DNA of 64,000 nt. It comes from Microterricola viridarii. Lineage in GTDB: Bacteria > Actinomycetota > Actinomycetes > Actinomycetales > Microbacteriaceae. The position numbers and the translations under genes were made by a program. Shown here piece by piece: positions 3,222 to 29,881 of the stretch. The notes below the pieces were generated by a model, which did not search any database, was not told the origin of the DNA, and worked only from the letters and a program-made list of their open reading frames with translations. Within the stretch, counting starts at the first letter, position 1; every line of letters starts with the position of its first letter. The stretch lies in assembly GCF_001542775.1 (NCBI RefSeq), contig NZ_CP014145.1, forward strand, positions 1 through 64,000. The letters run 5' to 3'.

Positions 3222-3318
3222 GGTCTTCTCCTTGCCGCAGGCGGTGGATCCGCCGGCGGGCTCAGGTTAAGAAGACGGTGTGCGGCGGGGCATCACCCGG
3301 CGGAGCCGTTCATCACCC

Positions 3319-3330: not shown

Positions 3331-3341
3331 GGGGTGCAGGC

Positions 3342-5382: not shown

Positions 5383-5444
5383 GGTGTTGCCACTCTGGCA
5401 CGGCGGCGACGCGGCGGCATCACACCGTGGAGCGGTTTCACCCC

Positions 5445-5473
5445 CTACCGCGGTAGTGGGCCTACCGCGGTAG
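5445..5473. promoter_or_regulatory. Tandem CTACCGCGGTAG palindromes before the kinase operon
   Basis: The perfect 12-bp palindrome CTACCGCGGTAG occurs twice, at 5445-5456 and 5462-5473, as part of a 17-bp direct repeat (CTACCGCGGTAGTGGGC). It lies 63-91 bp upstream of the kinase start at 5382. Two dimer sites at fixed spacing are what a NarL-type regulator would use for autoregulation; a degenerate third copy lies before the acyltransferase. Confidence 0.65.
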
Positions 5474-5507
5474 TGGGCGTGAGCGGCCGGGTCGCGAGCC
5501 GGAGCCG

Positions 5508-6080: not shown

Positions 6081-6134
6081 GCTCCTAGCTCAACACATGA
6101 ACATTTCGACCTCATGTCAGCGGGGCGCGCGACC

Positions 6135-9997: not shown

Positions 9998-10543
9998 CTA
10001 TTCTTCGGCAAGCGGCTTCGCCATGCAGATGCTGTGCTTCTCGCCGATGTACTGCCCGAACTGGTCGATCTCGCGGTAGCCGTGCTTGCCGTAGAGGGCG
10101 AGCGCTGAATCGTGCAGATCGCCCGTCTCCAGCAGCAGGCGGCGGATGCCGTGCGCCGCCGCATCCGCCTCGATCCGGCCGAGCAGGGCGCCGGCCACGC
10201 CGCGCCCGCGTGCAGCTGCGCTCACGAACATGCGCTTCAGCTCGGCGTCGCCAGGCCGGCCGCCGTCGGTGTCGGGGTCCAGCGCGACCAGGGCCGCGAG
10301 TCCCAGGGCACGGCCGCCCTCATCACGGGCGACGTAGACGCGCACACCGGGGCGTTCGAGCGCGTCGACGTCGAGCAGGAAGTTGCTCTCCGGAGGGTAG
10401 CCGAGGCTTCGCGCGTAGGCCGTGCTCTGCTCGAGCAACGCCACCAGCTCGCTCTGACGCGGTGCCTCGACCGCGATGTTCAAGGCGGGGTCAATTCTCA
10501 GGGTGTGTGCGGCCGCGCCCGGCCGCAGTTCTGCGCTCGTCAT
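9998..10543 (-). CDS. GNAT-family N-acetyltransferase
   Basis: A 181-residue acetyltransferase. The acetyl-CoA pyrophosphate loop is AAARGRGVAGALLGRIEADA near residues 112-131, preceded by AELKRMFVSA and followed by LLLETGDLHDSALALYGKHGYREI, the typical GNAT end. It is a single-gene unit. The acceptor is unknown. Confidence 0.87.
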   Translation of the reverse strand: MTSAELRPGAAAHTLRIDPALNIAVEAPRQSELVALLEQSTAYARSLGYPPESNFLLDVDALERPGVRVYVARDEGGRALGLAALVALDPDTDGGRPGDAELKRMFVSAAARGRGVAGALLGRIEADAAAHGIRRLLLETGDLHDSALALYGKHGYREIDQFGQYIGEKHSICMAKPLAEE

Positions 10544-10739
10544 GGCGCGAGCCTAGGCCGCCGACGTTTCGGCGCGGTTACGGGGCGCCACCGACGCGGC
10601 GCCGAAGCCAACGCCCCGATCTACCGTCGGCCCCCGCCCGGCCCCCGGCCAACCCCCGCGCGCCGGCGCCCGTGTGCCGCGCCGGGATTGCGCACCGGTT
10701 CAGGGCGACTTCTCAGCCGGCATCCGGTAATGTAGACAA

Positions 10740-10938
10740 GTCGGCTCTAGACACCGCATGTGTAATGCGGATGGGTTTGTAAGTCTGGTGGGCCGGTTTC
10801 GCAACAATTCTGTTGGCGAAAAATCACAATGTATGTGAAACGGCCCCGGTCAAGACTCCCCGGGTTCTCAGTTGCGATGCGCTCATTGAGGCGCAGCGTT
10901 GTTCTGCCATGTACTCGAACAAAACCCAGGAAATCTTT
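10740..10938 (+). promoter_or_regulatory. Probable long 5' leader of the DEAD-box helicase gene
   Basis: The 395 bp between the GNAT gene and the helicase start contain no supported gene. The last 200 bp hold possible RNA structures: a perfect hairpin CCGCAT-GTGTA-ATGCGG (10754-10770) and an imperfect pairing of GGGCCGGTTTC (about 10790) with GAAACGGCCC (about 10840). Cold-shock helicase mRNAs often carry long structured leaders, so post-transcriptional control is plausible. I could not place a convincing promoter. Upstream, 10550-10700 is unusually GC-rich with nothing recognisable. Confidence 0.4.
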
Positions 10939-14834: not shown

Positions 14835-15587
14835 CTAGCGAATGCCGAGGTAGAAACGCGCCTCGTCCGTGCGATGCAGCGCGCGGTAATACTCGAATGG
14901 GATCTCGTCCGCGCCCCAGGCGATCGACTCAATGTGTAGAACAGGAGAGCCGGCCGGCAACTCCAGGAGCGCGGTCTCTTCGTCCGAGGGGATGACCGCC
15001 TGAATCCACCGGTCAGCGCCGACCGGAGCGACCCCATAATGGCGTCGCAGGTGCTCGTAGAGGGAGCGGTTCTCCAGATTGCTCTTCAGCAGGCCGCTGA
15101 ACGGCTCCTTGGGGAGGGTCGTCTGCACGAGAAGCGCCGGCGTGCCGTCAACGGAACGCAGCCGTCGGATGCGGATCACGGGTGCGCCTTCCGGGATGCG
15201 GAGCGCACCTGCCTCGGCGCTGTCTGCCTGACCCTCGCCGAGGCTGAGGACACGCGTAGCGGAGCTGCGCCCCGCGGCCAACAGGTCATCGGAGGAGCCG
15301 AGCGTGGAGCCGATGAAGCCGAGATCGCGGCGCGTTGGAGCCACAAAGGAGCCTTTGGCGCGGATCTTGTAGATCAAGCCTCGCTGGACGAGGTCGGCCA
15401 AGGCCTCGCGCACCACCGTGCGGGAGACCCCGAAGCGATCAATGAGCTCAGCCTCGGACGGCAAGGCCTGGTCCGCGCTGAGCTTCCCGCTCTGGATTGC
15501 CCCGCGGATGACGCCGGAAAGCTGTACCCACAGTGGGTCCCTCGACGCGCGATCGAGCTGCAGATCGCGCAGAGATGCGCCGCTCAT
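14835..15587 (-). CDS. GntR/HutC-family transcriptional regulator of the sugar locus
   Basis: A 250-residue regulator: winged HTH at residues 18-85 (WVQLSGVIRGAIQSGKLSAD, LPSEAELIDRFGVSRTVVRE, then LADLVQRGLIYKIRAKGSFV) and a UTRA ligand-binding domain to the end (PVIRIRRLRSVDGTPALLVQT, SLYEHLRRHYG, PVLHIESIAW). The ATG at 15587 is preceded by AGGGGG. It is divergent from the ABC-importer operon and very likely represses it through the palindrome at 15689-15710. UTRA regulators respond to sugar phosphates or amino-sugars, which would suit a pathway intermediate as inducer. Confidence 0.9.
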   Translation of the reverse strand: MSGASLRDLQLDRASRDPLWVQLSGVIRGAIQSGKLSADQALPSEAELIDRFGVSRTVVREALADLVQRGLIYKIRAKGSFVAPTRRDLGFIGSTLGSSDDLLAAGRSSATRVLSLGEGQADSAEAGALRIPEGAPVIRIRRLRSVDGTPALLVQTTLPKEPFSGLLKSNLENRSLYEHLRRHYGVAPVGADRWIQAVIPSDEETALLELPAGSPVLHIESIAWGADEIPFEYYRALHRTDEARFYLGIR

Positions 15588-15649
15588 GAGTCCCCCTTCA
15601 TGCGAGACGCCCATCTATGACGATCCCGAGACTACCGTTCGCCGCCTGT

Positions 15650-15678
15650 TTGACAGCGACGGTGTGTATGCCTATATT
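15650..15678 (+). promoter_or_regulatory. Sigma-70-type promoter of the sugar-import locus
   Basis: TTGACA (15650-15655), 17 bp, TATATT (15673-15678): close to the vegetative consensus and unusually AT-rich for this genome. The expected start of transcription is about 15685, about 130 bases before the binding-protein gene. Confidence 0.7.
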
Positions 15679-15688
15679 CATATCACTA

Positions 15689-15710
15689 CTAACTTGTCAT
15701 GACGAGTTAG
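15689..15710. promoter_or_regulatory. Candidate GntR operator
   Basis: A 22-bp palindrome centred on TCATGA: left arm CTAACTTGTCA, right arm TGACGAGTTAG, symmetric at 10 of 11 positions. It begins about four bases after the predicted transcription start, a classic roadblock position for a repressor. Confidence 0.65.
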
Positions 15711-15817
15711 GGACTACAAGTAGGTACACGATCACCACAGTCTCGTGCCGTTCACGAGGTATCCCTGCAGTCAACGCACCAAGCGCAAAGACGCGAATCC
15801 CTTTATGGAGGACAACA

Positions 15818-16894
15818 ATGTCGTTTAGATCCCTTCGGCGAGTCAGCATCGCTGCCGCGGCCATCGCCGCACTCACTCTCACCGGATGCGCCGCAGGCGC
15901 CGAAACCGGATCGGCTCCAGCCGGCGATGGAGACGGCATCTCAATCGCCCTCAGCAACGGCTTCGTCAACGGATGGCGCCTCACCCTCATCAACAAGTTC
16001 GAGGAGGAGGCGACCAAGCTCAAGGCCGACGGCATCGTCTCCGACTTCTCGACCGTGAACGCGCCCGGCGAGAACAGCGCCACGGAGCAGGCCTCACAGA
16101 TCCGTAGCCTCGTGCTGCAGAACCCGGATGTGCTCCTGGTCATTCCGGCCTCCTCCACCGCGCTGATCCCCGCAGTGGAAGAAGCCTGCGACGCGGGCAT
16201 CACGGTCGTCGTTCTCGACGCCGACATGGACGCCCCCTGCGCTCACGTCGTGCGCAACGCCTACGACATGTGGGGCGAGGTCTCGCTCCTGCCCGCACTC
16301 GACGCAATCGGCGGCGAGGGCAACATCGTCATCAACCGTGGCGTCATCGGCTCGCAGCCCGAAGAAGCGTTCCACGCCCGTCAGCTGGAGATCCTCAAGG
16401 ACTACCCGAAGGTGAAGGTCGCAGCCGAGATCAACGGCTTCTGCGACAGCAGCACTGCCCAGAAGGAGATCGTCTCTGTTCTCGGCTCGCTGCCGGAGAT
16501 CGCCGCGACTCCCGGCTGCATCGGCGGCATGGGCATTGTCCAGGCGTTTGAGTCGGCGGGCCGGGAGGCCCCCGTCGTTGTGTTCGACACCGACGGCAAG
16601 TCGCTGAACTTCTGGAAGGACAAGGGCATCAGCAACGGTTCCTTTGCCGCGCTGACCGACCCCGGCCAGGTTATCGCCGCGATCTACGTCGCCCTGGCGG
16701 TACGGGATGGCCAGGACGTCCCGCGTGAGGTTGTGCTGCCGCTGCTCGAGATCTCCCAGAGCGACCTCGGCTATTGGGCCGACAAGCTCGCCTCGGACGA
16801 GTACGCCGCGAACCAGTGGGACAAGGAAAGCGTCGACGCCGCTCTGGCTGCCATCGCTGCGGGCGAAGAAGTCCTCGCCCCCGCCATCAAGTAA
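15818..16894 (+). CDS. Sugar ABC transporter substrate-binding lipoprotein (LsrB/RbsB-type)
   Basis: A 358-residue periplasmic-binding-protein-like lipoprotein. The lipobox LTGC places the acylated Cys at residue 24. The mature part has the type-I (Peripla_BP_4) pattern: ISIALSNGFVNGWRLTLINK, LVLQNPDVLLVIPASSTALI, ITVVVLDADMD, GNIVINRGVIGSQPEE, VVFDTDGKSLNFWKDKGI. This family binds ribose, xylose, rhamnose, polyols or AI-2. The start at 15818 follows GGAGG. It is the first gene of the operon and presumably the specificity component. Confidence 0.88.
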   Translation: MSFRSLRRVSIAAAAIAALTLTGCAAGAETGSAPAGDGDGISIALSNGFVNGWRLTLINKFEEEATKLKADGIVSDFSTVNAPGENSATEQASQIRSLVLQNPDVLLVIPASSTALIPAVEEACDAGITVVVLDADMDAPCAHVVRNAYDMWGEVSLLPALDAIGGEGNIVINRGVIGSQPEEAFHARQLEILKDYPKVKVAAEINGFCDSSTAQKEIVSVLGSLPEIAATPGCIGGMGIVQAFESAGREAPVVVFDTDGKSLNFWKDKGISNGSFAALTDPGQVIAAIYVALAVRDGQDVPREVVLPLLEISQSDLGYWADKLASDEYAANQWDKESVDAALAAIAAGEEVLAPAIK

Positions 16895-16926
16895 CCCCGT
16901 GTGAACGGCGAGTCCGAGGAATAACC

Positions 16927-18465
16927 ATGTCACTTACAGAACTCAGCGAATCGCTCGGTGCGGCGCCCAGCGCCGCCCCGACTGCGCCGACCATCGTCGC
17001 GCGCGGCGTAACGAGGAGCTACGGCAAGACCCGTGCTCTGCGGGGCGTCGATCTGCACCTCGAGCATGGTGAGATTCTCGGACTCGTCGGCCACAACGGC
17101 GCGGGCAAGAGCACGCTCATGCGAATGCTCGCCGGCATCGAGCAACCCGATTCCGGCGAGGTCATCGCCAGAGAGCGCCGGGCGGGCCACGCCTGGAACG
17201 CCACCGCCGCCGCCAAGTCCGGTGTGCGCATGGTCTATCAGGAACTCGCGCTGTGCGACGACTTGACCGTCGCCGAGAACGCCGCACTCTCTGACCCCCG
17301 CCCGACCGGAGTCTGGGGATGGCGCGGTCGCGCGGAGCGCCGCATCGGCGAAGCGCTCGACACCGTTTTTCCCGGCCACGGCATCTCGGTGCTGCGCCGA
17401 ACAGGGGAGCTGGCCATGGCCGAGCGCCAGATGGTCGAGATCGCCCGCGCCCTCTGCACCGACAGGCTCACCATGCTCATCCTCGACGAGCCGACCGAGT
17501 CGCTCGGCGTGGACGCCACCGCCCAGCTCTACACACACCTCCGCAGCCTGACCGGCCGTGGCGTGAGCATTCTGCTCATCTCGCACCGGATGCAGGAAGT
17601 GCTCGCGAACAGCGACCGCATTGCCGTGATGAAGGACGGCACGGTCGTCGAGACGTTCGCCGCCTCTGCGACATCCGAGAGCGAACTGCTCGTCGCGATG
17701 GGGGGCGAGGTGCGTGCGGCGGATGCCGAGACCGGCCCTGCCGGGTCCGACGACACCGGCATCGCCGCTGCCGGGCGCGCCAGCCGTCGTGGCGACGTCG
17801 TCGCCGCGGTGCGCGCCCCATCGGGGATCAGCTTTGAGGCCCGCGCCGGCGAGCTCATCGGTCTGGCTGGCCTCGCAGGCCAGGGGCAGGAACAGCTGTT
17901 GAACAAGCTCTGGAACGCCGGCGCGCTCAGCCGCGGCCTCACCGTTCCGAAGCGCCGGGCGTATGTGCCGGGCGACCGCCAAACCTCGGGGATCCTGCCG
18001 CTCTGGAGCGTTGCGGAAAACCTCACCGTCTCTGCACTGCGAGGCCTCGGCCGCTTCGGCGTCATCGATGGCCGTGCCAAGCGGGCATTGGCCGCCAGAT
18101 GGATCGCAGCCCTCAAGGTGCGCGGCGATGCCGCGACACCGATCACCTCACTCAGCGGTGGCAACCAGCAGAAGGTTCTCGTGGCCAGAGCATTCGCCGC
18201 CGACGCTGAGCTTGTGCTCCTCGACGACCCGTTCCGCGGCGTCGATGTCGCCACCAAGAACGAGCTCTACGCCCTCATGAAGGCCGAAGCCGCCGCCGGG
18301 CGATCGATCGTCTGGTACTCGACGGAGAACAGCGAGATGGCACACTGCGACCGCGTCTACGTCTTCCGCGCGAACCGGCTCGTCTCCGAACTCAGCGGCG
18401 AATCCAACACCGAGGAGCGGATCATCGCCGACTCCTTCGACGAGACCTCCGGAGAACTGCGATGA
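16927..18465 (+). CDS. Sugar ABC transporter ATP-binding protein, two nucleotide-binding domains
   Basis: A 512-residue fused ATPase of the RbsA/MglA/LsrA family. The first domain is canonical: Walker A GHNGAGKST (55-63), signature LAMAERQMVEIARAL, Walker B LTMLILDEPTESLG, switch His in LISHRM. The second is degenerate as usual at Walker A (GLAGQGQEQLLN lacks the Lys/Thr pair) but keeps LSGGNQQKVLVARAF. Its Walker B reads LLDDPFRGVDV, with Asp in place of the catalytic Glu. The downstream permease overlaps by four bases (ATGA). Confidence 0.92.
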   Translation: MSLTELSESLGAAPSAAPTAPTIVARGVTRSYGKTRALRGVDLHLEHGEILGLVGHNGAGKSTLMRMLAGIEQPDSGEVIARERRAGHAWNATAAAKSGVRMVYQELALCDDLTVAENAALSDPRPTGVWGWRGRAERRIGEALDTVFPGHGISVLRRTGELAMAERQMVEIARALCTDRLTMLILDEPTESLGVDATAQLYTHLRSLTGRGVSILLISHRMQEVLANSDRIAVMKDGTVVETFAASATSESELLVAMGGEVRAADAETGPAGSDDTGIAAAGRASRRGDVVAAVRAPSGISFEARAGELIGLAGLAGQGQEQLLNKLWNAGALSRGLTVPKRRAYVPGDRQTSGILPLWSVAENLTVSALRGLGRFGVIDGRAKRALAARWIAALKVRGDAATPITSLSGGNQQKVLVARAFAADAELVLLDDPFRGVDVATKNELYALMKAEAAAGRSIVWYSTENSEMAHCDRVYVFRANRLVSELSGESNTEERIIADSFDETSGELR

Positions 18466-19439
18466 CCACAACACTCCCGGCCACCGGCCGGCCCGGCCTG
18501 GCCAACCGGGCCCGGGTGGGCGCAACCCACGGGTTCCCCGCACTGCTCTCCCTCGTCGCGCTTGTCGTGATCTTCGGCATCTCCGTTGCCAACCAGCCCG
18601 GCATCCTGAGCGTTTCCGGCCTCACCTTGATGCTCATGTCGGCGGTGCCATTGGTCTTCGCCGCGCAAGCGCAGATGCTCATCATGTCCGTCGGCGACAT
18701 TGATCTCGGCATCGGAGCCCTCATCGGACTCGTGACGGTCATCGCCGCCACGCTCCTGACCGAGAGCCCGATCCTCGGCGTCGCCCTGCTCGTGGCGATT
18801 GTGTTCGTCTACGCCCTGCTGGGGCTCATCGTGCAGAAGCGCGGCGTCCCCTCCATCATCATCACGCTGGGCATGTCCTTCGTCTGGATCGGTCTCGGAT
18901 TGCAAATCCTGCCCACGCCAGGCGGTGCAACGCCGGAATGGCTCACCGCCGTCGGCCGGTGGCGCCCGGACGCCATCCCCGCTCCGCTCGTCTTCATCGT
19001 GGCCGCCACCCTCATCGGCTGGTATCTCGCACGACAGAGCCGCATTGGGTCCCGGATGCGTGCGCTCGGCAGCAGCGCGGCCACCTTGCAGAAAGCGGGT
19101 TGGTCGCTCGCCGGCACCCGCGTCATGGCCTACGTGCTCGCCGCCGTGCTCATCATCGTCTCCGGTCTGTTGCTGGCGTCGCAGACGCGCTCCGGGGACA
19201 TCAACTCTGCGAGCAACTTCACGCTCATGACGATCGCCGCAGTGATCCTGGGCGGTGGCACCTTCTCGGGCGGGCGCGCTCTGCCCATCGGCGCCACGCT
19301 CGGCGCCGTCACCCTGGGGCTCATCACCGTGCTGCTCAGCCTGATGAACCTGTCGTCCAGCCTGCAGTCCGCGGCGCAGGGAATCATCGTGCTCGCCGTT
19401 TTGGCCGGCCGCATCATTACAGAGAGGTTCACCCGATGA
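18462..19439 (+). CDS. Sugar ABC transporter permease (first)
   Basis: A 325-residue BPD_transp_2 permease (RbsC/LsrC family) with about nine hydrophobic helices. Typical segments are QAQMLIMSVGDIDLGIGALIGL (the conserved GxIDLS-like site after helix 2), VQKRGVPSIIITLGMSFVWIGLG and FTLMTIAAVILGGGTFSGGR. The start overlaps the ATPase stop and its own stop overlaps the next start. It forms the membrane channel with the second permease. Confidence 0.9.
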   Translation: MTTTLPATGRPGLANRARVGATHGFPALLSLVALVVIFGISVANQPGILSVSGLTLMLMSAVPLVFAAQAQMLIMSVGDIDLGIGALIGLVTVIAATLLTESPILGVALLVAIVFVYALLGLIVQKRGVPSIIITLGMSFVWIGLGLQILPTPGGATPEWLTAVGRWRPDAIPAPLVFIVAATLIGWYLARQSRIGSRMRALGSSAATLQKAGWSLAGTRVMAYVLAAVLIIVSGLLLASQTRSGDINSASNFTLMTIAAVILGGGTFSGGRALPIGATLGAVTLGLITVLLSLMNLSSSLQSAAQGIIVLAVLAGRIITERFTR

Positions 19440-20485
19440 GCGCCACGCTCTCCTCACCCACTCTGACCGCCTCGGACGACGTCCTCGGGCGTCGCCGGCT
19501 CAGCTGGCCCGCGTGGGGTTGGTCGTTCATCGGCGTGCTCGCCGTGTGGGCCCTGATCATCATCGTGCGCCCCGGTGCTCCGTTCGATCCCGTCGCACAG
19601 GCGCTCACGCTGGCACCGTTCCTGGTTCTCGTCGCGCTCGGCCAGATGCTCGTCATCACGCTCGGCCCGGGCAACATCGACGTATCCGTCGGCACCATCA
19701 TCTCGATGGCGTCGTACGTGTCGGTGGCCGTCGGCGCCAGCCTCGGGCCGCTCGCCGGAATCCTCGCTGCAGTCGGTGTTGGCATTGCCGCCGCTGTGTG
19801 CAGCGTCATCGCCATTCTGCTGCTCAAGGTGCCTCCAATCATCGCCACCCTGGCGACGAGCCTGATCGTCTCCTCGGCGACCTTGCTCCTGGCCGACGCC
19901 AGCCGGCATTCCGCGGATGCCGCGCTCCGGGCGTTCGTGAACGCGAAGATCCTCGGCATCCCGGTGATCGCAGTGCTCGTGCTCGCCATCACCGTCGTCA
20001 TTGCCCTCATGCTTCGGCACACGCGCTTCGGCCTCTCGGTGCTCGCCGTCGGCCAGAGTGCTCGCGCCGCCGAGCGCGCCGGCATCAACGTGCGGGCGAT
20101 CACGGCCATGGCCTACCTCGCCTGCGGCGCATTCGCCGGCCTCGCCGGCGGCCTGCTTGCCGCCTTCATCTCTCCGAGCACGGTGCTCGGCACCTCCTAC
20201 ATGCTCGACTCGATCGCCGTCGTCGTGATTGGCGGAACGCTGATCTCCGGGGGCAGGGCCGTCGCGACGGGGGCCTGGACCGGCGCGCTCTTCTTTGTGC
20301 TGCTCTCCGGCCTGCTCAACCTCGTCGGCTGGAGCATTGGCGCCCAGAACATCCTCAAGGGCGTCTTGGTTGTCGCCGTGGTCGTCGTCTCGGCGGCCGC
20401 CAGCGGAACCGGAGGATCCTCTCTCGCGCGACTGCGCGAATCCCTCCACATCGGAAACAGAAACAAGGAGACTACACATGGCTGA
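19436..20485 (+). CDS. Sugar ABC transporter permease (second)
   Basis: A 349-residue paralogue of the preceding permease (LsrD/RbsC family). It carries [68 protein letters not shown] and [19 protein letters not shown]. Two different permeases in one operon, as in LsrCD or RhaPQ, imply a heterodimer. The gene overlaps the previous one by four bases and the lsrF-like gene by eight. Confidence 0.9.
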
Positions 20486-21353
20486 CCTCGACGACCTCCG
20501 CGAAGGAACCAACTTCGGCGGCGCGCCCGTTGGCGCCCAGGGTGCCTTCCACCTGAAGGGTCTGGGCGGGCAGGACTGGGGTATGCGCGCCCGCCTGTCG
20601 CGCATCTTCGACCCGGCCGACGGCAAGACCGTGATGCTCGCATTCGACCACGGCTACTTCCAGGGCCCGACATCCGGTCTTGAGCGTCTCGACCAGTCCA
20701 TCGTGCCCCTGATCCCGCAAGCGGACGCCCTCATGCTCACTCGCGGCGCGCTGCGCACCACTATCCCCGCCGAGAACGGCAAGGGCATCGTGCTGCGCGC
20801 CAGCGGCGGGCCGAGCGTGCTCACCGACCTCTCCAACGAGGAGATCGCCGTCAGCATCGACGACGCCGTGCGCGTTGACGCCGCTGCGCTGGCCGTGCAG
20901 GTGTTCGTCGGGAGCGAGAACGAGACCAAGTCCATCAAGAACCTGACCACGCTGGTCGACCAAGGCCAGAATGTCGGAATCCCCGTGCTCGCTGTCACCG
21001 CCGTCGGCAAGGACATGGTGCGCGACGCCCGCTACTTCCGCCTCGCGACCCGGATGTCGGCCGAGCTCGGCGCGGCCTTCGTGAAGACGTACTACGTCGA
21101 AGACGGCTTCGAGACGATCACTGCCGCCTGCCCCGTTCCGATCGTCATCGCCGGAGGCAAGAAGGTCGAGGAGAAAGCGGCCCTCACCATTGCGTATCGG
21201 GCGATGCAGGAGGGTGCCGCAGGCGTCGACATGGGTCGCAACGTCTTCCAGTCCGCTCACCCGTCCGCGATGCTCGCTGCCGTGCGCGCCGTCGTGCACG
21301 AGAACCTGACGCCCGCTGAGGCCTTCGCCCTCTACGAGGAACTCTCCCACTGA
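20478..21353 (+). CDS. LsrF-type aldolase/thiolase (DeoC/FbaB class I fold)
   Basis: A 291-residue protein, exactly the length of E. coli LsrF, the thiolase that transfers an acetyl group from phospho-3-hydroxy-2,4-pentanedione to CoA at the end of AI-2 degradation. The start reads [22 protein letters not shown], continuing with [20 protein letters not shown]. The Schiff-base Lys is at 203 in [13 protein letters not shown], the same residue number I recall for LsrF. The phosphate-binding end is PIVIAGGKK...[14 protein letters not shown]. The assignment to the subfamily is good; the true substrate depends on the locus, which lacks other clear AI-2 signatures. AAGGAG precedes the ATG at 20478. 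Confidence 0.85.
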
Positions 21354-21358
21354 TCGGA

Positions 21359-21387
21359 GGGCGCGGGATGGAACTCGTCCCGCGCCC
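21359..21387 (+). terminator. Intra-operon hairpin between the lsrF-like and FAD dehydrogenase genes
   Basis: GGGCGCGGGA (21359-21368) and TCCCGCGCCC (21378-21387) form a perfect 10-bp stem followed by CCTTTGTT. It starts six bases after a stop codon and ends 20 bases before the next start. It could be a partial terminator that lowers expression of the catabolic genes relative to the importer, or an mRNA-stability element. Confidence 0.6.
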
Positions 21388-21407
21388 CCTTTGTTATAAG
21401 GAACACC

Positions 21408-23054
21408 ATGCCCGCTCTGTCGAGCTATGCAAGCAATGTGGCCCCCGTCGATGTCGCCGTGATCGGCGCAGGAATCAACGGCCTCGCGGTCGCCCGCGAG
21501 GCGGCGCGCCGCGGACTCAGCGTCGTTCTCGTCGACCAAGACGACATCGGAGCGCGCACCTCCGCCATCTCGACCCGCCTCATCCACGGCGGGCTCAAAT
21601 ACCTTGAGCGCCTCGAACTTCACCTGGTCTACGAGTCGATTAGGGAGCGCAACATTCTTCTCAAGCGTGCTCCGCACCTGGTCCACCACTACCCGATGCT
21701 GGTGCCATTCGTGAAAGGTCAAAGCAGGCCGGGCTGGCTGGTTGCCTGTGGGCTCATGCTTCACGACGTGCTCGCCATCGGCAAGCCGCTTCCGTTCAAC
21801 CGGATCGTCTTCGGCGGCAGGATGCGCCGGGACTGGCCGGAACTGGCCGAGGGCGGCGTCCGATGGGGTGGCCTCTTCCACGACGCCCACGTTCCTCTCA
21901 CCGAGCGGCTGAGCCTGGAACTCGCCGTTGACGCGCACGCACACGGTGCCACCCTGCTGACCCATTCCAAGGTTGAGTCGCTCCTGCGCACCGGGGGCCG
22001 AATCACCGGCATCCAGTACCGGGACCGGATGGACGGTGGACTCAAGCAGATCGACGCCCAGCTCGTCGTCAATGCTGCAGGCCCCTGGGTCGACGAGGTG
22101 CTCGCACTGGTCGGCGGTCACGACCGCAAGATGGGACCGACCAAGGGCAGCCACCTGGTTGTGGACCCCTTCGACGGTGCTCCGGAAAGCTGCATCTTCT
22201 TCGAGTCACCGGATGACGCACGGCCTATGTTCGTGCTGCCGTGGAACGGTCGCTACATGATCGGCACGACCGACATCCCCTACAACGACTCGATCGACTC
22301 GATTGTCATCGACAGCGACGAGAGCGCTTACCTGCTCAATGCCGTCAACCGACTGATCCCCCGGGCGAAGCTGAGCACAGAGGACGTGTTGTGGTCGTAC
22401 TCCGGCGTGCGCCCCTTGCCCTATGTGGGCGAACTGGACGATCCCTCCAAGGTCAGCCGTGACCATGAGATCCTCGTGCACCGTGGATCGAGTGCCGGCT
22501 TGATCACTCTCATCGGCGGGAAGCTCACCACTCACAGAGCGCTCGGCGAACTCGTCGCCAAGAAGATCGAACGCGCCCTCGGCCGTAAGCCGGGCGCCTC
22601 GCCCACCCGCGACGCCGCGCTCCCGGGTGCCCCGACCGGCGACTGGTCTGAGTACCGTGCGCGCTTCATCGGGCGCAGCTCGCTGCCCACAGCCGCCGCC
22701 ACACGCATCGTCGACACATACGGCGTTGCCGCCGAGTCCATCTCTCGACTGGTCGACGGGACACCCGAGCTGGCCGAGGTCGTCGACCCGGACAGCGGTG
22801 CGATCGCAGCCGAGGCGGTGCACGCCGTCGTCAACGAGGGCGCGTTCACGCTGGAGGACGTTGTGCTGCGCCGCATGGTCGTCGCACTGAACGGAGATGT
22901 CGGCCTCGCGGCCGCCCCCGCGATTGCCGCCGTCCTGGTCAAGCACGCGGGCTGGAGCAGCGAACGCGCCGACGCTGAGCTCGCCCGGTATCGTCAGTCG
23001 ATGCGCCGTTTCATGCCGCGGGTCGTCCGCGCTGAAAACGCGGCCGGCAACTAG
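21408..23054 (+). CDS. FAD-dependent polyol-phosphate dehydrogenase (GlpD/EryB family)
   Basis: A 548-residue flavoprotein. FAD Rossmann motif VAVIGAGINGLAVAREAARRG is near residue 17, the GlpD signature STRLIHGGLKYLE follows near 57, then LVVNAAGPWVDEV, MIGTTDIPYNDSID, YSGVRPLPYVGE and GLITLIGGKLTTHRALGE; a DAO C-terminal domain ends it. GlpD oxidises glycerol-3-phosphate; the erythritol enzyme EryB is the same family. Beside a LyxK/EryA-like kinase and aldolases, oxidation of a phosphorylated polyol to a ketose phosphate is the natural reading. TAAGGA precedes the ATG. Glycerol-3-phosphate itself remains possible. Confidence 0.85.
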   Translation: MPALSSYASNVAPVDVAVIGAGINGLAVAREAARRGLSVVLVDQDDIGARTSAISTRLIHGGLKYLERLELHLVYESIRERNILLKRAPHLVHHYPMLVPFVKGQSRPGWLVACGLMLHDVLAIGKPLPFNRIVFGGRMRRDWPELAEGGVRWGGLFHDAHVPLTERLSLELAVDAHAHGATLLTHSKVESLLRTGGRITGIQYRDRMDGGLKQIDAQLVVNAAGPWVDEVLALVGGHDRKMGPTKGSHLVVDPFDGAPESCIFFESPDDARPMFVLPWNGRYMIGTTDIPYNDSIDSIVIDSDESAYLLNAVNRLIPRAKLSTEDVLWSYSGVRPLPYVGELDDPSKVSRDHEILVHRGSSAGLITLIGGKLTTHRALGELVAKKIERALGRKPGASPTRDAALPGAPTGDWSEYRARFIGRSSLPTAAATRIVDTYGVAAESISRLVDGTPELAEVVDPDSGAIAAEAVHAVVNEGAFTLEDVVLRRMVVALNGDVGLAAAPAIAAVLVKHAGWSSERADAELARYRQSMRRFMPRVVRAENAAGN

Positions 23055-23067
23055 CAAGGAAGCAACA

Positions 23068-24567
23068 GTGTCAGTCAACCAGTGCTACATCGGGATCGAC
23101 GTCGGTCTCACCTCGGCCAAGGCCGCCGCGTTCGATGCCGACGGCCGTGAACTCCGCTGCTATTCGGCCCCGAACCCCCGGGTCGCCGTCTCCTCCGACC
23201 GCCAAGAGATCAACATGACCGCCCTCTGGGAGGTCGTGGCCGATGTGCTGGGGCTGCTCACCGGCTGGCTCGACGCCAACGGCTGGACGGTGCGGGCGCT
23301 TGGCGCAACGGGCCACGGAAACGGGCTGTACCTCGTCGATGAACAGCTCGCGCCCGTGCGCAGCGCATTCGCCTCGACCGACACCCGGAGTGAGAACATT
23401 GTCGCCGGCCTCGACCCGTCGGAGGTGGAGCGGGTTCGAACCGTCACCGGCTCAATGCCGTGGGCCGGGCAACCCGGGGTGCTGCTGCGCTGGATGCACG
23501 ACAACGAGCCGGAGACCCTCGCACGGGCACGGTGGGCGCTGACCTGCAAGGACTGGATCACCGCGTGCCTCACGGGGCAGGCGAACGCCGACTACTCCGA
23601 CGCCTCCGGCTGCGGGCTGGTCAACTTGGCGGATCGCCGCTACGAACCTGAGGTGTTCGACATGCTCGGAGTTCCGCGTGAGCTCATGCGGCTGCTGCCG
23701 CCTCTCGCGAACTCTGATGCCGTCGTCGGCGAGGTGTCGGTCGAGGCGGCCGCACGCACGGGGCTCCGGGTCGGGGTTCCGGTCGTGGCCGGGTGCATGG
23801 ACTGCGTCGCGAGCCCCATTGGCGCCGGTTCGACCGAGCTCGGAGACGTCACGGTGATCGTCGGAACCTGGGCGATCAATTCCGTTGTGGTCCCCGTCAG
23901 CGACGCCCCGCCCCGTGTCACTCTCAACGCGCTCCTTCCTGACCCTGAGCTCATGCTCGCGCAGGAGGTTGCGCCCACATCCGCCGCGAGTATCGAGTGG
24001 TACTCGTCGCTCATGTCTACGCTGTCCGCCGATACCGTCTCGCCCCAGCAGCTCCTGGCGGCGGCGGAGTCCGTGCCGGCGGGAGCCGACGGCCTGCTCT
24101 TCTTGCCGTTTGTGCATGGCGCCCCCGAACACCTTGGAGCCACCGGCACCCTGATCGGTGCCAAGGGGAGCCACGGCCACCGCGAGATCGCCCGCGCCGT
24201 CGCGGAGGGCATCACGCAGTACCACCGCGTGCAGCTTGAGAAGTTGCGGGCGAGCGGTGCGCGGGTCTCGTCTGACCCCTGGACGTTGGCGGGAGGCGGG
24301 GCGAAGAACCCGCTCTGGGCGCAGATCTTCGCCGATGTGATCGGCCACCCTGTGCGTAGGCAACTTGGCACAGAGTTGGGCGCTCGAGGGGCGGCCTCAC
24401 TGGCCGCGAACGGGATCGGCGGCGACACGAGCAGCTGGCGAGTCAGCCCAGACCCCGCCCTCGTGGTCGCCCCAGGGGCCGACCGCGAGAGCTATCAACG
24501 ACAGGGCGCGCGCTTCGACAGGGTGCTCGCCGCAATGGCACAGGTATGGACGGAGGCCGCGCGATGA
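23068..24567 (+). CDS. FGGY-family carbohydrate kinase (LyxK/EryA-like)
   Basis: A 499-residue sugar or polyol kinase. The N-terminal phosphate loop is YIGIDVGLTSAKAAAFDADG. Next come GATGHGNGLYLVDE, TWALTCKDWITACLTG-type middle motifs and DASGCGLVNLADRRYEPEVFDMLGV. The second ATP site is VIVGTWAINSVV, followed by EVAPTSAASIEWYSS, LLFLPFVHG and LAGGGAKNPLWAQIFADVIG. The VGTWA and APTSAASIEW blocks resemble L-xylulose kinase and erythritol kinase more than glycerol kinase or E. coli LsrK. The GTG start at 23068 follows AAGGAAG. The stop overlaps the aldolase gene (ATGA). Confidence 0.87.
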   Translation: MSVNQCYIGIDVGLTSAKAAAFDADGRELRCYSAPNPRVAVSSDRQEINMTALWEVVADVLGLLTGWLDANGWTVRALGATGHGNGLYLVDEQLAPVRSAFASTDTRSENIVAGLDPSEVERVRTVTGSMPWAGQPGVLLRWMHDNEPETLARARWALTCKDWITACLTGQANADYSDASGCGLVNLADRRYEPEVFDMLGVPRELMRLLPPLANSDAVVGEVSVEAAARTGLRVGVPVVAGCMDCVASPIGAGSTELGDVTVIVGTWAINSVVVPVSDAPPRVTLNALLPDPELMLAQEVAPTSAASIEWYSSLMSTLSADTVSPQQLLAAAESVPAGADGLLFLPFVHGAPEHLGATGTLIGAKGSHGHREIARAVAEGITQYHRVQLEKLRASGARVSSDPWTLAGGGAKNPLWAQIFADVIGHPVRRQLGTELGARGAASLAANGIGGDTSSWRVSPDPALVVAPGADRESYQRQGARFDRVLAAMAQVWTEAAR

Positions 24568-26491
24568 CGGCTGTGAAAAACGCGCTCCAGGGTGCACTCG
24601 AAGAGATCGTGCGCGTGTCGAGGGAACTCGGCAGCGACCCAGCCCTCGTGCTGCACGGCGGTGGCAACACCTCGATCAAGGCGATGGGGGAAGACGTGAC
24701 GGGCGAGCAAATTGAGCTCGTCCTGGTCAAGGGCAGCGGCTGGGATCTCGGCACGATCGAGTCGCAGGGCTTCGCCCCACTGCGACGCGCGCGGCTGCTC
24801 CAACTGTTGCGGCTCGAGAAGCTGAGCGACTCCAGCATGGTCAACGAGTTGCGGCAGGCCTCTCTCTCCGCCTCGGCCCCGACGGCGTCGATCGAGGCGC
24901 TGCTGCACGCTCACCTGCCTGCGCGGGTCGTGTTGCACTCGCACGCCGACGCGATCGTCGCCCTCACCGACCAGCCGGACGGCCTGCGCCGGGCTGCCGA
25001 GGTTCTGGGCGAGCGGGTCGCAGTATTGCCCTACATCATGCCGGGCTTCGACCTCGCCCGCATGGTTGCTTCGACAGAGCTGGCCGACGCCGACGCCATC
25101 GTGCTGGCCAACCATGGCCTGTTCACCTTCGCCGATGACGCGGATGCCGCACTCGACCGGCACCGGGCACTCGTGGCAGCCGCATCCGCCGCGCTCGGTA
25201 TGGAGCATTGGGGCGTCGAGGGTGAAATCGTGCAGCGGGCGGGTACCCCGATAGAGCTCGCCACCCTGCGCCGTGACATTGCGCGCACGGCCGGCCGGCC
25301 TCTGCTGCTGCGGCAGTCAGCCTCCGAGCGGGCATTGCGATTCGCAGGACGAGATGATCTGGCCGCTGTCACGTCGCGCGGAACGGCGACGCCGGAGCAC
25401 GTCATCCGCACCAAGCGGGTGCCTCTGCTCGGCGTCGACGTCGACGACTACTCCGAGCGTTACCTCCGCTACGTCGCAGAGAACAGGGGCGACGGCGAGT
25501 ACACGGTTCTCGACCCGGCCCCCGCGTCGTCCTCGACGCCGAGCTCGGCCTGCTGACGGTCGGGGCGACACCGGCCGCTGCCGATGCGGTGCACGATATC
25601 TACCTGCACACGATGGACATCATCGATGCCGCAGATCGGGATGGCGGCTACTCCTCGCTCGACGAAGCGCAGAGCTTCGAGACCGAGTATTGGGAGCTGG
25701 AGCAGGCCCGCATCCGCTCGTCCGACGGTGGGCGCGACCTGGAGGGAGAGGTCGCACTTGTAACCGGTGCGGCCTCGGGAATCGGGCGTGCCTGCGCTGC
25801 GGCGCTGCTCGCACGGGGAGCGGCCGTCGTCGGCATCGATCTCAACGACGCCGTGTTGTCGAGCTTCGCCGGGCGCGCATGGCGTGGCGTTGTCGGGGAC
25901 GTGAGCGACATTGCGGTGCTGGACGCGGCGATCGACGTGGCCGCACGCGAATTCGGGGGAGTCGACATGCTCGTCGTTGCAGCGGGGATCTTCCCGGAGA
26001 GCGCGCCGCTCTCCACGCTCGATGACGCACTCTGGGACCGCTCGCTCCGGGTGAACGCGACCGCGGTCGCCCGGGTGCTGCGCGCATCCCACCCGATGCT
26101 CGCCCTCTCGCCGCGCGGCGGGCGGGTCGTTCTGGTGTCGACCAAGAACGTGGCAGCTCCCGGCCCCGGTGCTGCGGCGTACTCAGCGAGCAAGACCGCT
26201 GCGGCCCAACTGGCCAGGGTCGCTGCGCTGGAATGGGCGCCCGATCGAATCCGCGTGAACCACGTCGAACCCGATGCGGTGTTCGACACCGCGATCTGGA
26301 CACCCGAGCTACTCGCGGAGCGCGCCTCACGATACGGCCTGACCGTTGACGAGTACCGCACCCGAAACCTGCTGGGCATCGAGGTGACGAGCGCCATGGT
26401 CGCAGACGCCGTGGTCGCACTCTGCGCCGGGTTCCCGGCGACCACCGGCGCCCACATCACCGTCGACGGCGGCAACGACCGCGTCATCTAG
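24564..26491 (+). CDS. Bifunctional class II aldolase / short-chain dehydrogenase, one-base frameshift at the fusion region
   Basis: Two halves are seen. Residues 1-320 (start ATG 24564) are a class II aldolase: LVLHGGGNTSIKA, zinc ligands in VLHSHADAIVALTD and ANHGLFTFADD. After YTVLDPAP the frame is lost at a run of five C (25519-25523). Adding one C restores RVVLDAELGLLTVGATPAAA and joins DIYLHTMDIIDAADR and an SDR domain (VALVTGAASGIGRACAAALLARG, VAAGIFPES, YSASKTAAAQL, end HITVDGGNDRVI). Repaired length is 642 residues, close to the RhaD/RhaE fusion that cleaves rhamnulose-1-phosphate and oxidises lactaldehyde. Here it would cleave a ketose phosphate and oxidise the released aldehyde. 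The SDR half also has its own possible starts, so split genes cannot be fully excluded. Confidence 0.82.
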
Positions 26492-26543
26492 CCGCCATTG
26501 CCCCGCCCATCCGCGCACCTGCGCCACCAGTCCAAGGAACACC

Positions 26544-26846
26544 GTGTCAGACAGCTTCTTCCAAGTCATCGCCCGTCACCAGCCGAAGGAGGGGCAGCTT
26601 GAGACCGTGCTTGAGTTGCTCGCCGAGCTGACAGCGGCCACGCGCACCGAGCCGGGCTGCCTCAGCTTCGAGTACTTCCGCAACGTTGAGAACCCCGACG
26701 AGATCGTCATCGTCGAGTGCTTCGTTGATGCCGCCGGGTTCGCCGCACACCGGGAGGCAGAACACTTCACCCGGATCGGGGTGGAGCAGATTGCGCCGCT
26801 TCTGCAGGCACGCTCCTCGAGCAAGGCTGTGGCCACGGTCGTGTAG
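26544..26846 (+). CDS. Small ABM-domain protein (LsrG/YgiN-like)
   Basis: A 100-residue antibiotic-biosynthesis-monooxygenase fold protein: FFQVIARHQPKEGQLETVLE, LTAATRTEPGCLSFEYFRN, EIVIVECFVDAAGFAAHREAEHF. Two functional types share the fold and size: LsrG, an isomerase of phospho-AI-2, and YgiN-type quinol monooxygenase. Being last gene of a locus with an LsrF homologue favours an LsrG-like role, but key residues cannot be aligned by eye with certainty. The GTG start at 26544 follows AAGGAAC. Confidence 0.75.
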   Translation: MSDSFFQVIARHQPKEGQLETVLELLAELTAATRTEPGCLSFEYFRNVENPDEIVIVECFVDAAGFAAHREAEHFTRIGVEQIAPLLQARSSSKAVATVV

Positions 26847-26890: not shown

Positions 26891-29881
26891 CTAGGCCGAC
26901 TGGCTGATCGTGCTCCAGCCCTGCTCGCTGACGCTGACCTGCAGCGACGCGTGAATCTGCTCCTTCATCGCCTCGACGTGGCTGATCAGCCCGATCGTGC
27001 GGCCGCCGGTGCGCAGGCCGTCGAGCGTTGACATCGCGATCTCGAGCGTCTCGGCATCCAGCGAGCCGAAGCCCTCGTCAATGAACAGCGTGTCCAGCGT
27101 GATGCCGCCGGCCCGGCCGGTGACGACCTCGGCGAGGCCGAGCGCCAGGGCGAGCGAGGCGAGGAACGTCTCGCCGCCGGAGAGCGAGTGCGTCGGCCGC
27201 TGCGCCCCGGTGTGGCTGTCGAGGATCGCCAGCCCGAGGCCGGACTGCGTGCCGCGATAGCCGATCGAATCGTCGTGCTCGAGCAGGTACCGGCCGCCGC
27301 TCATCTGGTGCAGCCGTGCATTCGCCGCCGCCACGATCTCCTCCAGCTCTGCGGCGAGCACGAAGCTCTCCAACCGCATCCTGCGTTCGTTCGGGGCGTC
27401 GCCCTTCACCGTCGCGGCCAGCCGCGCCACAATCTCGTGCCGCGCGATCAGATCCGCGGATGCCGCCAGCTCGGCCTCGACGGTGCCGACGAGCTCGCGC
27501 AGGCTGGCCGCATGCGCGCCGAGCGTCGCGCGCCGGGTGAGCGCCTCGTCCCGCTCCGTGCGGGCCAGTTGGAGTGCGGCCTCGGATTCCCAGAGCGCGA
27601 CCTCCTCGACCGGAAGCCCGGCAAGTTCCGGCTCGGCCAGGATCGCGGACGTCGCGGCGATCGCGTCATCGTGCGCCCGGAGCCGTCGTTCCAGGGCGGC
27701 GCGCTGCTCCGCGTCCAGGTGCGCGGCCGAGACCGCGTCCGCGCTGTCGAAGCCCTGTTGCTCCAGCCGCTCGCCCAGCTCGGCATTGGCGCCGGCCGCA
27801 GCGGTGCCGGCGACGGCGACGGCGCCCTGGGCGTCGGCCAGCGTGTGCGCCGCCGCCAGGGTGCGGGCGAGGGCCTCGCCGCGGGCGGCGATCGTCGGGT
27901 AGCCGGCGCGCTGCTCCGCCACGCGCTGCTCGCCCTCTTCGATGCGCGTGCGTGCGGCGGTGTGCGCGGTGACGGCCAGCGTCAGGGCCTCGCGGCATGC
28001 CGCCACCGCTGCCGCCAACTCGCGGAGCTCGGTGGTGTGCTCGCCGAGCCGCACGGCCAGTTCGTCGGATTCGGCCGCCGCGGCGGCGGCCGACGCGATG
28101 GATTCCTCCGCACGCAGGATCTTCGCCTCGAGCAGCCGTGCCGGCAGCGTGCCGGCCAGCGCGGTCTCCGCCGCGAGCTCCGAGTCGATCTGGTGTGCAG
28201 CCTCGCGGGCCGTTTCGGCGACGGCACGGCACTCGGCGAGCTCGGCCTCGGCTGCGGCGATGTCCTCGGCCCCCACCGCGTCCGTGGAGACCTCGGCCGG
28301 GTGCGGGTGTTCCCGGCCGCCGCAGACGGCGCACGGCTCGCCGTCGCGCAGCTCAAGCGCGAGCTCCGCGGCGTGTCCGTTCAGGCGTCGGGCGCGCAAC
28401 CGGTCGAGCCGGGCGGATGCCGCCGTGCTCTTCAGTCCGGCATTGAACTCGGCCTCGCGGGCCGCCGCGAGCTCCGGTTGCATGGTGACGACGCGCTGGG
28501 CGTGGGCGAGTGTCGCCGCCAGGCGGTCACGCTCGGCCGACTCGGGGTCCAGCCGGGCCGCCGTCAGCCGCAGCTCGGCCAGCCGCGCCGTGTCGGCCGC
28601 AATGAGCGCCGGCAGCGCGGTAGACCGCTCGACGACCTCTGCCAGTGCCGACTCCGCCGCGGCGTGCTGTCGTGCGTGCTGCTCCACGGCGTCGTGCAAC
28701 GCGGGAAGACTGGTCTCCAGGGCCAGCGTCTCATTGAGGGCGCCCTGCTCCTGTGTCGACGTCTCGATGAGCAGGGCCAACTCCGCGGGCGAACCGCCGT
28801 TGCCCTCGGTGGTGGGCAGCGCCACGAACGCCGACAGCGCCCGTTCCCGCGCGCCCTCTGCCGCCTGCAGCGCCGTGCGGGCGCGGGCGGCGGTCGTCAC
28901 CGCCCCGAGCGCGACCTCGGCGCGGGCGGCGGCGGCCAGCGCGGCGCGCTCGGCGTCGATCGTCTCTATCGCGGCACGCAGTTCGGCCAGACGCGCCTCG
29001 GCCGCGGCCCGACGCTGCTGGGCGGCGCGCAGCGCGACGCGGGAGTCGTGTGCGGCGTCGGCGGCCGCGAATCGGGCGTCGGCGGTCTCGGCCGCGTCGA
29101 GCGCCTGCAGCACGAGCTGCCGGGCGGCATCCGTCAGCCCGGCCAGCCACGGGGTGAGCGCCTCGGCGGTGCGCGACTCGGGCACGGCGGCGGCTTGCTC
29201 GGTGAGCCCGAGGGCGCGCGCCACCGTGCCGGCCTGCTCGACCATCTGCTTGAGCGTGGCCCTGCGGCTGCCGAGCTCGGCGTCGAGCTGTTTGCGCTGT
29301 TCGGTGAGTGTCGCCTCGTAATCCTGGAACCGCCGGGTGCCGAACAGTGAGCGCAGCACCTCCTGGCGCGCCTCGCTCTTGGCCAGCAAGAACTGCTGGA
29401 ACCGGTTCTGGGCGAGCAGGATCACCTGCAGGAACTGGTCCTTGTTCAGCCCGACCAGCTCGGCGATGCGCGGCCCGACCTCGCGCGGTTGCGCCTCGAT
29501 GCCGTGCCACTCGGTGCCGCGCAGCTCGAACAGCTCCGCGGTCGCCTTCTGCTTCGTTGTACCGGTTCCGCGTGCCTTCTGCCGCTCGAACTCGGGCGCC
29601 CGCTCCACCCGGTAACGGGTGTCGCCGGCGGTGAACTCCAGGGTGACGAGGCTCGCGTCCTCTGGCCCGGCGTGGTCGCTGCGCAGCCGCGCCTTCGTGC
29701 CGTCGTAGCGCGGCACGCTGTCGTAGAGCGCGAAACAGATCGCGTCGAGAATGCTCGACTTGCCGGCGCCCGTCTTGCCGCCCATCAGGAAGATTCCGTC
29801 GTCGGCGAAGGCGTCGAAGTCCACATGCTGCGCCGTCTTGTACGGCCCGAAGCCCTGCACGCTCAGCTTGTTGATCCTCAT
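26891..29881 (-). CDS. sbcC: SbcC exonuclease subunit (Rad50-like ATPase)
   Basis: A 996-residue SMC-like ATPase that works with SbcD to cleave DNA hairpins and protein-blocked ends. N-terminal LSVQGFGPYKTAQHVDFDAF and Walker A GGKTGAGKSSILDAI at about 34-48 come first. Long Ala/Glu-rich coiled coils (180-850) are interrupted by the zinc hook CAVCGGREHPHP near residue 517. The C-terminal end has signature SLSGGETFLASLALALGLAEV and Walker B TLFIDEGFGSLD. The ATG overlaps the SbcD stop by four bases. Confidence 0.95.
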   Translation of the reverse strand: MRINKLSVQGFGPYKTAQHVDFDAFADDGIFLMGGKTGAGKSSILDAICFALYDSVPRYDGTKARLRSDHAGPEDASLVTLEFTAGDTRYRVERAPEFERQKARGTGTTKQKATAELFELRGTEWHGIEAQPREVGPRIAELVGLNKDQFLQVILLAQNRFQQFLLAKSEARQEVLRSLFGTRRFQDYEATLTEQRKQLDAELGSRRATLKQMVEQAGTVARALGLTEQAAAVPESRTAEALTPWLAGLTDAARQLVLQALDAAETADARFAAADAAHDSRVALRAAQQRRAAAEARLAELRAAIETIDAERAALAAAARAEVALGAVTTAARARTALQAAEGARERALSAFVALPTTEGNGGSPAELALLIETSTQEQGALNETLALETSLPALHDAVEQHARQHAAAESALAEVVERSTALPALIAADTARLAELRLTAARLDPESAERDRLAATLAHAQRVVTMQPELAAAREAEFNAGLKSTAASARLDRLRARRLNGHAAELALELRDGEPCAVCGGREHPHPAEVSTDAVGAEDIAAAEAELAECRAVAETAREAAHQIDSELAAETALAGTLPARLLEAKILRAEESIASAAAAAAESDELAVRLGEHTTELRELAAAVAACREALTLAVTAHTAARTRIEEGEQRVAEQRAGYPTIAARGEALARTLAAAHTLADAQGAVAVAGTAAAGANAELGERLEQQGFDSADAVSAAHLDAEQRAALERRLRAHDDAIAATSAILAEPELAGLPVEEVALWESEAALQLARTERDEALTRRATLGAHAASLRELVGTVEAELAASADLIARHEIVARLAATVKGDAPNERRMRLESFVLAAELEEIVAAANARLHQMSGGRYLLEHDDSIGYRGTQSGLGLAILDSHTGAQRPTHSLSGGETFLASLALALGLAEVVTGRAGGITLDTLFIDEGFGSLDAETLEIAMSTLDGLRTGGRTIGLISHVEAMKEQIHASLQVSVSEQGWSTISQSA

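Follow-up and report, generated by a model that had tools for sequence, protein, structure and literature searches.

Gene content of the cluster

The gene cluster described here occupies positions 14835–26846 of the first 64 kb of the Microterricola viridarii genome, a single contig of 3.69 Mb; these 64 kb are referred to below as the window. It is considered as a candidate operon for the catabolism of a deoxy sugar alcohol or related sugar built around a homologue of LsrF, an enzyme of autoinducer-2 (AI-2) degradation. A divergent regulator gene precedes a run of forward-strand genes that are spaced by -22 to +54 bases, and the next large open reading frame downstream (26891–29881) lies on the strand opposite to the cluster. 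The binding protein and the ATPase probably start at the ATG codons at 15818 and 16927, respectively. The features are as follows, where SDR denotes short-chain dehydrogenase/reductase.

14835–15614, reverse strand: GntR/UTRA (HutC-type) regulator (PF00392, PF07702); the divergent gene is also kept in relatives
15650–15678, forward strand: predicted sigma-70-like promoter TTGACA-17-TATATT, from reading the sequence; similar elements seen by eye in relatives
15691–15708, no strand assigned: predicted GntR operator AACTTGTCATGACGAGTT, an imperfect palindrome; pattern conserved in relatives and near-unique in the genome
15818–16894, forward strand: CUT2 sugar/polyol-binding lipoprotein
16927–18465, forward strand: double ATPase of an ABC importer (two PF00005 stretches)
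18462–19439, forward strand: permease 1 (PF02653)
19436–20485, forward strand: permease 2 (NCBIfam CUT2 permease models, scores under the cut-offs)
20478–21353, forward strand: LsrF-family thiolase/aldolase, 291 amino acids (PRK08227, 462 bits; active-site residues)
21408–23054, forward strand: predicted GlpD-like FAD sugar-alcohol-phosphate dehydrogenase (PF01266, PF16901; own clade)
23068–24567, forward strand: FGGY kinase (PF00370, PF02782; apart from LsrK in the tree)
24546–25556, forward strand: class II aldolase half of an aldolase/SDR fusion, frame broken near its end (NF006196, 343 bits; PF00596)
25589–26491, forward strand: SDR half of the fusion in a different frame (NF006196, 415 bits; PF00106; motifs TGAASGIG and YSASK)
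26544–26846, forward strand: ABM-domain protein of 100 amino acids, a possible helper isomerase (PF03992)

An initial annotation of this DNA had named a GntR regulator, a two-permease sugar importer and an FGGY kinase, all of which were recovered, the regulator as GntR/UTRA and the importer as CUT2-type (PF00392, PF07702, PF00005, PF02653 and NCBIfam models for the first two, PF00370 and PF02782 for the kinase). Its remark that LsrR, an isomerase and RhaA are missing also held among the cluster genes, none of which encodes an MtnA-type isomerase.

LsrF acts on 3-hydroxy-5-phosphooxypentane-2,4-dione (P-HPD, CH3-CO-CHOH-CO-CH2OP), thiolysis of which gives acetyl-CoA and dihydroxyacetone phosphate (DHAP). 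The homologue in the window scored 462.5 bits against the NCBIfam equivalog model PRK08227 (cut-off 297), whose NCBI family name implies P-HPD thiolysis; in source databases such proteins go under the names AI-2 aldolase or P-HPD thiolase. The homologue retains each of the eight active-site residues that were checked (D57, H58, K203, G226, G227, D251, G253 and R254), among them the LsrF-specific Asp251; the accessible text of PMC2728841 lists the active-site residues of E. coli LsrF, including the phosphate glycines. The predicted LsrF homologue of 291 residues with a Schiff-base lysine at position 203 was thus borne out, and we infer that it is a P-HPD thiolase.

The aldolase–SDR fusion, in contrast, is not one open frame in the window as had been supposed. 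The frame of the aldolase ends at 25556; that of the SDR is a different one, with a first listed start at 25589, and the NF006196 profile covered positions 11–335 in the aldolase half (343 bits) and 358–657 in the SDR half (415 bits). Two relatives of the same genus (L134 and L135; L numbers denote comparison loci) have a single frame of 648 amino acids, and compared with these a single base is missing from the window close to 25523, where the sequence is rich in C. All 13 other complete fusions from window-type clusters in the comparison set are unbroken (L011–L014, L134–L137, L139–L143), aligned over 643–693 residues. Judged from the sequence, the break is either an assembly error or a real lesion. 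Were it real, the operon could be decaying in this strain through loss of the fusion and perhaps of the pathway, a reading in line with a break seen here and in 0 of 13 counterparts. We regard decay as improbable, as the other cluster genes are open, the catalytic motifs are kept in both halves, Streptosporangiaceae clusters do without the fusion and an assembly error is possible.

Conserved core and regulation

LsrF was found at E ≤ 1e-60 in 15 of 299 Microbacteriaceae genomes and in 40 of 396 genomes of the phylum, the own genome being counted; within the genus, own genome aside, it occurred in two of four listed genomes. All 14 non-self loci of the family and the loci of six of the 39 non-self phylum genomes were examined. 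The gene order of the window recurred in 10 of the 14 Microbacteriaceae loci (L134–L143; the contig of L138 ends within the fusion) and likewise in four loci of Microbacterium (L011–L014, with L011 lacking the regulator end), while it differed in L144–L147. The genome-neighbourhood check suggested in the initial annotation hence found the gene set again, and an order that recurs across loci makes the cluster more than a chance assembly.

The composition of more distant clusters was reduced or altered. Streptosporangiaceae loci (L016–L020) held the GntR regulator, binding protein, ATPase, two permeases, LsrF, GlpD and FGGY kinase, and no aldolase/SDR was present in these loci. A whole-genome search for the fusion in the six genomes of L015–L020 gave at best 242 bits (34–36% identity), with no match in two genomes; the same search gave 778–853 bits in the genomes of L012–L014. 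As no close fusion was found in the former, kinase, GlpD and LsrF must suffice there. Sagittula (L003) combined a binding protein, ATPase, one permease, an LsrR-like regulator, GlpD, FGGY kinase and LsrF with a lone class II aldolase, and Shinella (L002) had LsrF, the fusion, the importer, FGGY kinase and GlpD with a DeoR regulator. What Microbacteriaceae, Streptosporangiaceae, Sagittula and Shinella have in common is LsrF accompanied by an FGGY kinase and a GlpD-type enzyme. The aldolase/SDR varies between clusters, and the ABM gene occurs even less often: at the cut-off used the latter lay beside two of the 10 Microbacteriaceae clusters of window type (L134 and L135), and also beside that of Micromonospora L015. 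LsrF and LsrG had been placed on a diketone side branch; for LsrF a side branch was rejected on account of its presence in minimal clusters, and the ABM protein fails the LsrG cut-off.

The intergenic region between the regulator and binding protein genes contains TTGACA-17-TATATT followed by AACTTGTCATGACGAGTT. It was compared with those of the 17 relatives for which both gene ends had been noted, using a search pattern of 16 bases drawn by eye from these same 18 sequences. The pattern matched all 18 regions (the window and 17 of 17 relatives) with 0–2 mismatches, whereas shuffled copies averaged 5.1–5.6 mismatches and 0 of 200 shuffles did as well for any region; since the pattern was taken from the sequences tested, this demonstrates conservation and is not an independent test. 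A genome-wide scan allowing up to two mismatches returned the cluster site (exact on one strand and with 1 mismatch on the other), which was the sole site at 0–1 mismatch, and one other with two mismatches. The reversed pattern gave three hits in the same scan against three for the operator pattern, and in a regulon search for missing enzymes the sole other site was therefore no better than this control. From these matches the regulon looks like one locus. A predicted operator found once in the genome implies that the induced gene set is local, and co-regulation of missing steps elsewhere is accordingly unlikely.

Relation to the Lsr and MtnA systems

The GlpD-type FAD dehydrogenase named in the initial annotation stands as a GlpD-like protein by PF01266 and the DAO_C domain (PF16901), with many invariant positions in common with E. 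coli GlpD, but it falls under the cut-off of the NCBI GlpD model (PRK12266; 332 against 360 bits). No erythritol enzyme was among the best 25 of its 45 NCBIfam matches. Trees were built with FastTree and few references. In these the protein formed a clade with its homologues from actinobacterial clusters and with GlpD of Shinella sp. WSC3-e (L155; support 0.98), a clade that included neither E. coli GlpD nor the three further GlpD-type proteins encoded in the genome (at 281540, 370978 and 1817123; 34–35% identity to the cluster protein). The Shinella plasmid locus (L155, 5682–21951), which holds the closest non-actinobacterial relative in the tree, also encodes two FGGY kinases, a sugar-binding regulator, a class II fructose-bisphosphate aldolase, lipA and a complex resembling acetoin dehydrogenase (E1 alpha/beta and E2/lipoyl proteins); perhaps the locus serves similar methyl-ketone sugars by a thiamine pyrophosphate-dependent route. 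Genes for 2-oxoacid or acetoin dehydrogenases of the E1/E2 type were seen by eye in translations near LsrF in an Opitutaceae metagenome-assembled genome (MAG; L059, 6095–9174) and in Microbacteriaceae L146 (1287–3655).

The cluster resembles the Lsr AI-2 system of Enterobacteriaceae (lsrKR-ACDBFG) in its CUT2 importer with two permeases, its FGGY kinase, its small ABM protein and an LsrF with about 60% identity. It differs in having GntR regulation and no LsrR, in the GlpD-like dehydrogenase and aldolase/SDR that are added, in a genome without LuxS, and in proteins that stay below the LsrB (19.8 against 384 bits), LsrK (132 against 528 bits) and LsrG (29.9 against 135 bits) cut-offs. The kinase also missed the XylB cut-off (212 against 380 bits); in the tree it did not group with LsrK and fell with LyxK and the kinases of Shinella and Sagittula. 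Support inside this group is weak and drops to 0.38 where window-type kinases join others beyond their own clade. An ABM protein the size of LsrG (100 amino acids, PF03992) had been correctly noted, although the score speaks against LsrG identity, and in a structure search the LsrG structure 2gff (3e-5) came after five other structures of ABM proteins. Scavenging of AI-2 or related diones from other bacteria, with the kinase acting for LsrK, the ABM protein for LsrG and LsrF last, would agree with the presence of LsrF and with the ABM fold common to LsrG. It would leave the GlpD-like protein and the fusion without explanation, the kinase, the LsrB score and an ABM match in only two of 10 related Microbacteriaceae clusters speak against it, and we consider it very improbable. 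LuxS was not found in the genome search, which argues against a home-made AI-2 loop, though scavenging needs no LuxS.

Neighbourhoods of LsrF were evaluated in 89 loci, made up of the best 80 of 544 LsrF relatives in a contig scan and nine of 19 plasmid records, a set that is biased towards close LsrF. LsrG lay within 6 kb of LsrF in 14 loci, none of which had an aldolase, SDR, GlpD or MtnA; conversely, none of the 47 loci with at least one of these four within 6 kb had LsrG. The naive hypergeometric chance of this exclusion is 7e-6, a figure inflated by relatedness, as 13 of the 14 LsrG loci are from Enterobacterales, and affected by contig ends that hide neighbours. The remaining 28 loci had neither, and among these L004 and L034 had LsrK but no LsrG or substitute at the thresholds used. 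Microbacteriaceae L147 carries an lsr-like operon (LsrK 47%, LsrR 39% and LsrB 55% identical to Enterobacter) in which a lone class II aldolase adjoins LsrF, with no LsrG match; this aldolase may stand in for LsrG. Other arrangements were also seen: in two Bacteroidota plasmids (L005, L007) an lsrF-named gene directly follows those of the dihydroxyacetone kinase subunits DhaK and DhaL, with no other AI-2 genes annotated nearby, and in MAGs of several phyla (L023, L028, L033, L065, L078 and others) LsrF is adjoined by a gene resembling ribulose-phosphate 3-epimerase, often with an aldolase/SDR fusion next.

A RhaD/E identity had been suggested for the fusion and was rejected. The domain layout is that of the bifunctional rhamnulose-1-phosphate aldolase/dehydrogenase, but the intact fusion of L134 scored 396 bits against TIGR02632 (cut-off 567.75) and the three Microbacterium genomes checked each have a second, distant fusion (34–36% identity), so that a RhaD/E role is unlikely. 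The cluster has no RhaA or RhaB. Its best model belongs to another subfamily, NF006196 (PRK08324.2-4), where L134 is just under the cut-off (805 against 831 bits over one protein) and the fusion of L045 passes it (838 bits). In a tree of 40 aldolase/SDR fusions, from which the broken one of the window was left out with L134 and L135 as stand-ins, one clade (support 1.0, 23 tips) contained 13 window-type fusions, both Shinella fusions and eight others including L045 and L066. The latter two are MAG loci in which the fusion accompanies MtnA (order MtnA, fusion, LsrF in L045 and fusion, MtnA, LsrF in L066). By uniting window-type fusions with these MtnA neighbours the clade provides an independent link to 5-deoxypentulose phosphate.

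The MtnA proteins of L045, L066 and L043 all pass TIGR00512; L043, a MAG, has MtnP (TIGR01694), MtnA, an LsrK-like kinase and LsrF within 11 kb (258–6208 and 10001–10906). MtnA lay within 6 kb of LsrF in four of the 89 loci and within 10 kb in five. Six of seven MAG genomes tested had MtnA over the cut-off (L043, L045, L057, L059, L066 and L079; L052 had only a 52-bit fragment), but so did eight of 14 control genomes, and genome presence alone is consequently a weak indicator. Among the own genome and four cluster-bearing actinobacterial genomes (L012, L013, L016, L017) only the MtnA of L017 passes, the best match in the own genome lying 1.2 Mb off (191 bits, cut-off 279).

A candidate deoxypentitol pathway

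We put the probability at about 0.4 that the cluster is a substrate-induced catabolic operon for a 1-deoxypentitol and/or a 1-deoxypentulose, for example 1-deoxy-D-xylulose, with LsrF as terminal thiolase; substrate, reactions and electron acceptor are all what we infer from the protein families. The CUT2 importer would take up the five-carbon deoxy sugar alcohol or deoxy ketose and the FGGY kinase would place a phosphate on its terminal CH2OH. GlpD oxidises the carbinol next to CH2OP, and the GlpD-like flavoprotein would likewise oxidise the hydroxyl adjoining CH2OP, with the quinone pool as electron acceptor. A 1-deoxypentulose 5-phosphate such as 1-deoxy-D-xylulose 5-phosphate (CH3-CO-CHOH-CHOH-CH2OP) could become P-HPD in one such step, from which LsrF and coenzyme A would form acetyl-CoA and DHAP. 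In the AI-2 pathway it is LsrG that relocates a carbonyl, from C3 to C4; if GlpD-type oxidation gives P-HPD directly, LsrG is not needed, in keeping with the lack of overlap between LsrG loci and those with aldolase, SDR, GlpD or MtnA. A 1-deoxypentitol phosphate would instead be converted by the GlpD-like enzyme to 5-deoxypentulose 1-phosphate (CH3-CHOH-CHOH-CO-CH2OP, the MtnA-type product), the C4 hydroxyl of which the SDR might oxidise to give P-HPD. Alternatively, the aldolase may cleave this intermediate to DHAP and acetaldehyde, as DrdA does.

The order of import, phosphorylation, oxidation and carbon–carbon cleavage anticipated in the initial annotation is supported, as are the deoxy-alditols among its candidates. 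Branched polyols (2-C-methylerythritol, apiitol) were rejected on chemistry, because their oxidation at the carbon next to the phosphate does not provide LsrF with a beta-diketone. Weighing against the proposal, the GlpD proteins of L002, L003 and L006 fall outside the GlpD clade of the window in the tree, and those of L002 and L003 are only 31–32% identical to the window protein. These data speak against strict orthology of the GlpD-type enzyme across clusters and have lowered our confidence accordingly.

In the erythritol pathway the FGGY kinase EryA acts first and the GlpD-like dehydrogenase EryB follows. The cluster shares this succession at family level but has no EryC/EryD, TpiA2 or RpiB, with LsrF in their place. 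The DHAP shunt for 5-deoxyribose salvage (mtnK-mtnA-ald2; drdK-drdI-drdA) is similar, as far as the accessible text of PMC6079011 and PMC12632272 describes it, in its class II aldolase, its DHAP product and the proposed 5-deoxypentulose 1-phosphate intermediate. It differs in using a kinase and isomerase where the window has a kinase and FAD dehydrogenase, and the window adds an ABC importer and, as proposed, LsrF thiolysis. The accessible part of PMC6079011 reports DrdA cleavage to DHAP and acetaldehyde and equilibrium constants of such aldol cleavages of typically ~1e-4, favouring the uncleaved sugar phosphate. Given this unfavourable equilibrium, oxidation and thiolysis would be preferred.

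The cluster could also serve an ordinary pentitol, tetritol or 6-deoxyhexitol, with the kinase and GlpD-like protein yielding a ketose 1-phosphate, LsrF or the class II aldolase acting as a plain DHAP-forming aldolase and the SDR oxidising glycolaldehyde or lactaldehyde. The kinase and GlpD-like protein are indeed of polyol-enzyme families, the fold and lysine of LsrF are those of a class I aldolase, and the NCBI names of the fusion families refer to aldolase/dehydrogenase activity. Alditols occur in some of the nearer solved binding proteins, among them two ranked after 4pe6 (4rs3 with ribitol or xylitol, 4wt7 with allitol), a hint that would suit the deoxypentitol reading too. The fold search with the binding protein gave no ligand class, and in PMC6429110 the code 4PE6 is listed with cathepsin S among docking targets, which does not bear on its ligand. 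On the other hand a second DHAP aldolase would be redundant, LsrF keeps the residues of a P-HPD enzyme including Asp251, the intact L134 fusion fails the rhamnulose model (396 against 568 bits) and its relatives adjoin MtnA in L045 and L066. An ordinary polyol is therefore, in our judgement, unlikely.

The initial annotation named no described pathway with this gene set, and there was none among the matches listed in open-licence literature; each protein family is known, while their combination and the proposed deoxypentitol route were without description among those matches. If the route is correct, it defines the class of substrate, the logic of induction and a way to assay directly a cluster of several actinobacterial families that is echoed in Alphaproteobacteria, and it separates having LsrF from processing AI-2. 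The thiolytic end would draw deoxypentulose phosphate onward, a task at which, going by the accessible text of PMC6079011, the reversible DHAP-shunt aldolase performs poorly. A broader reading, which we hold to be doubtful, makes P-HPD a metabolic hub with three feeders on LsrF: AI-2 via LsrK/LsrG, 5'-deoxyadenosine-type nucleosides via MtnP/MtnA and SDR, and deoxypentitols or deoxypentuloses via FGGY kinase and GlpD-like enzyme. Thiolytic deoxypentose salvage to acetyl-CoA and DHAP would then be the wider and perhaps older job of LsrF, AI-2 degradation a special case, which would hint at a role of the family in sugar salvage that extends well outside signalling.

Rfam and tRNA scans of the window gave no matches. 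Upstream of the cluster, at 10813–13251, an open reading frame that by eye resembles a DEAD-box helicase has a long, repetitive N-terminal part rich in Arg, Asp and Asn.

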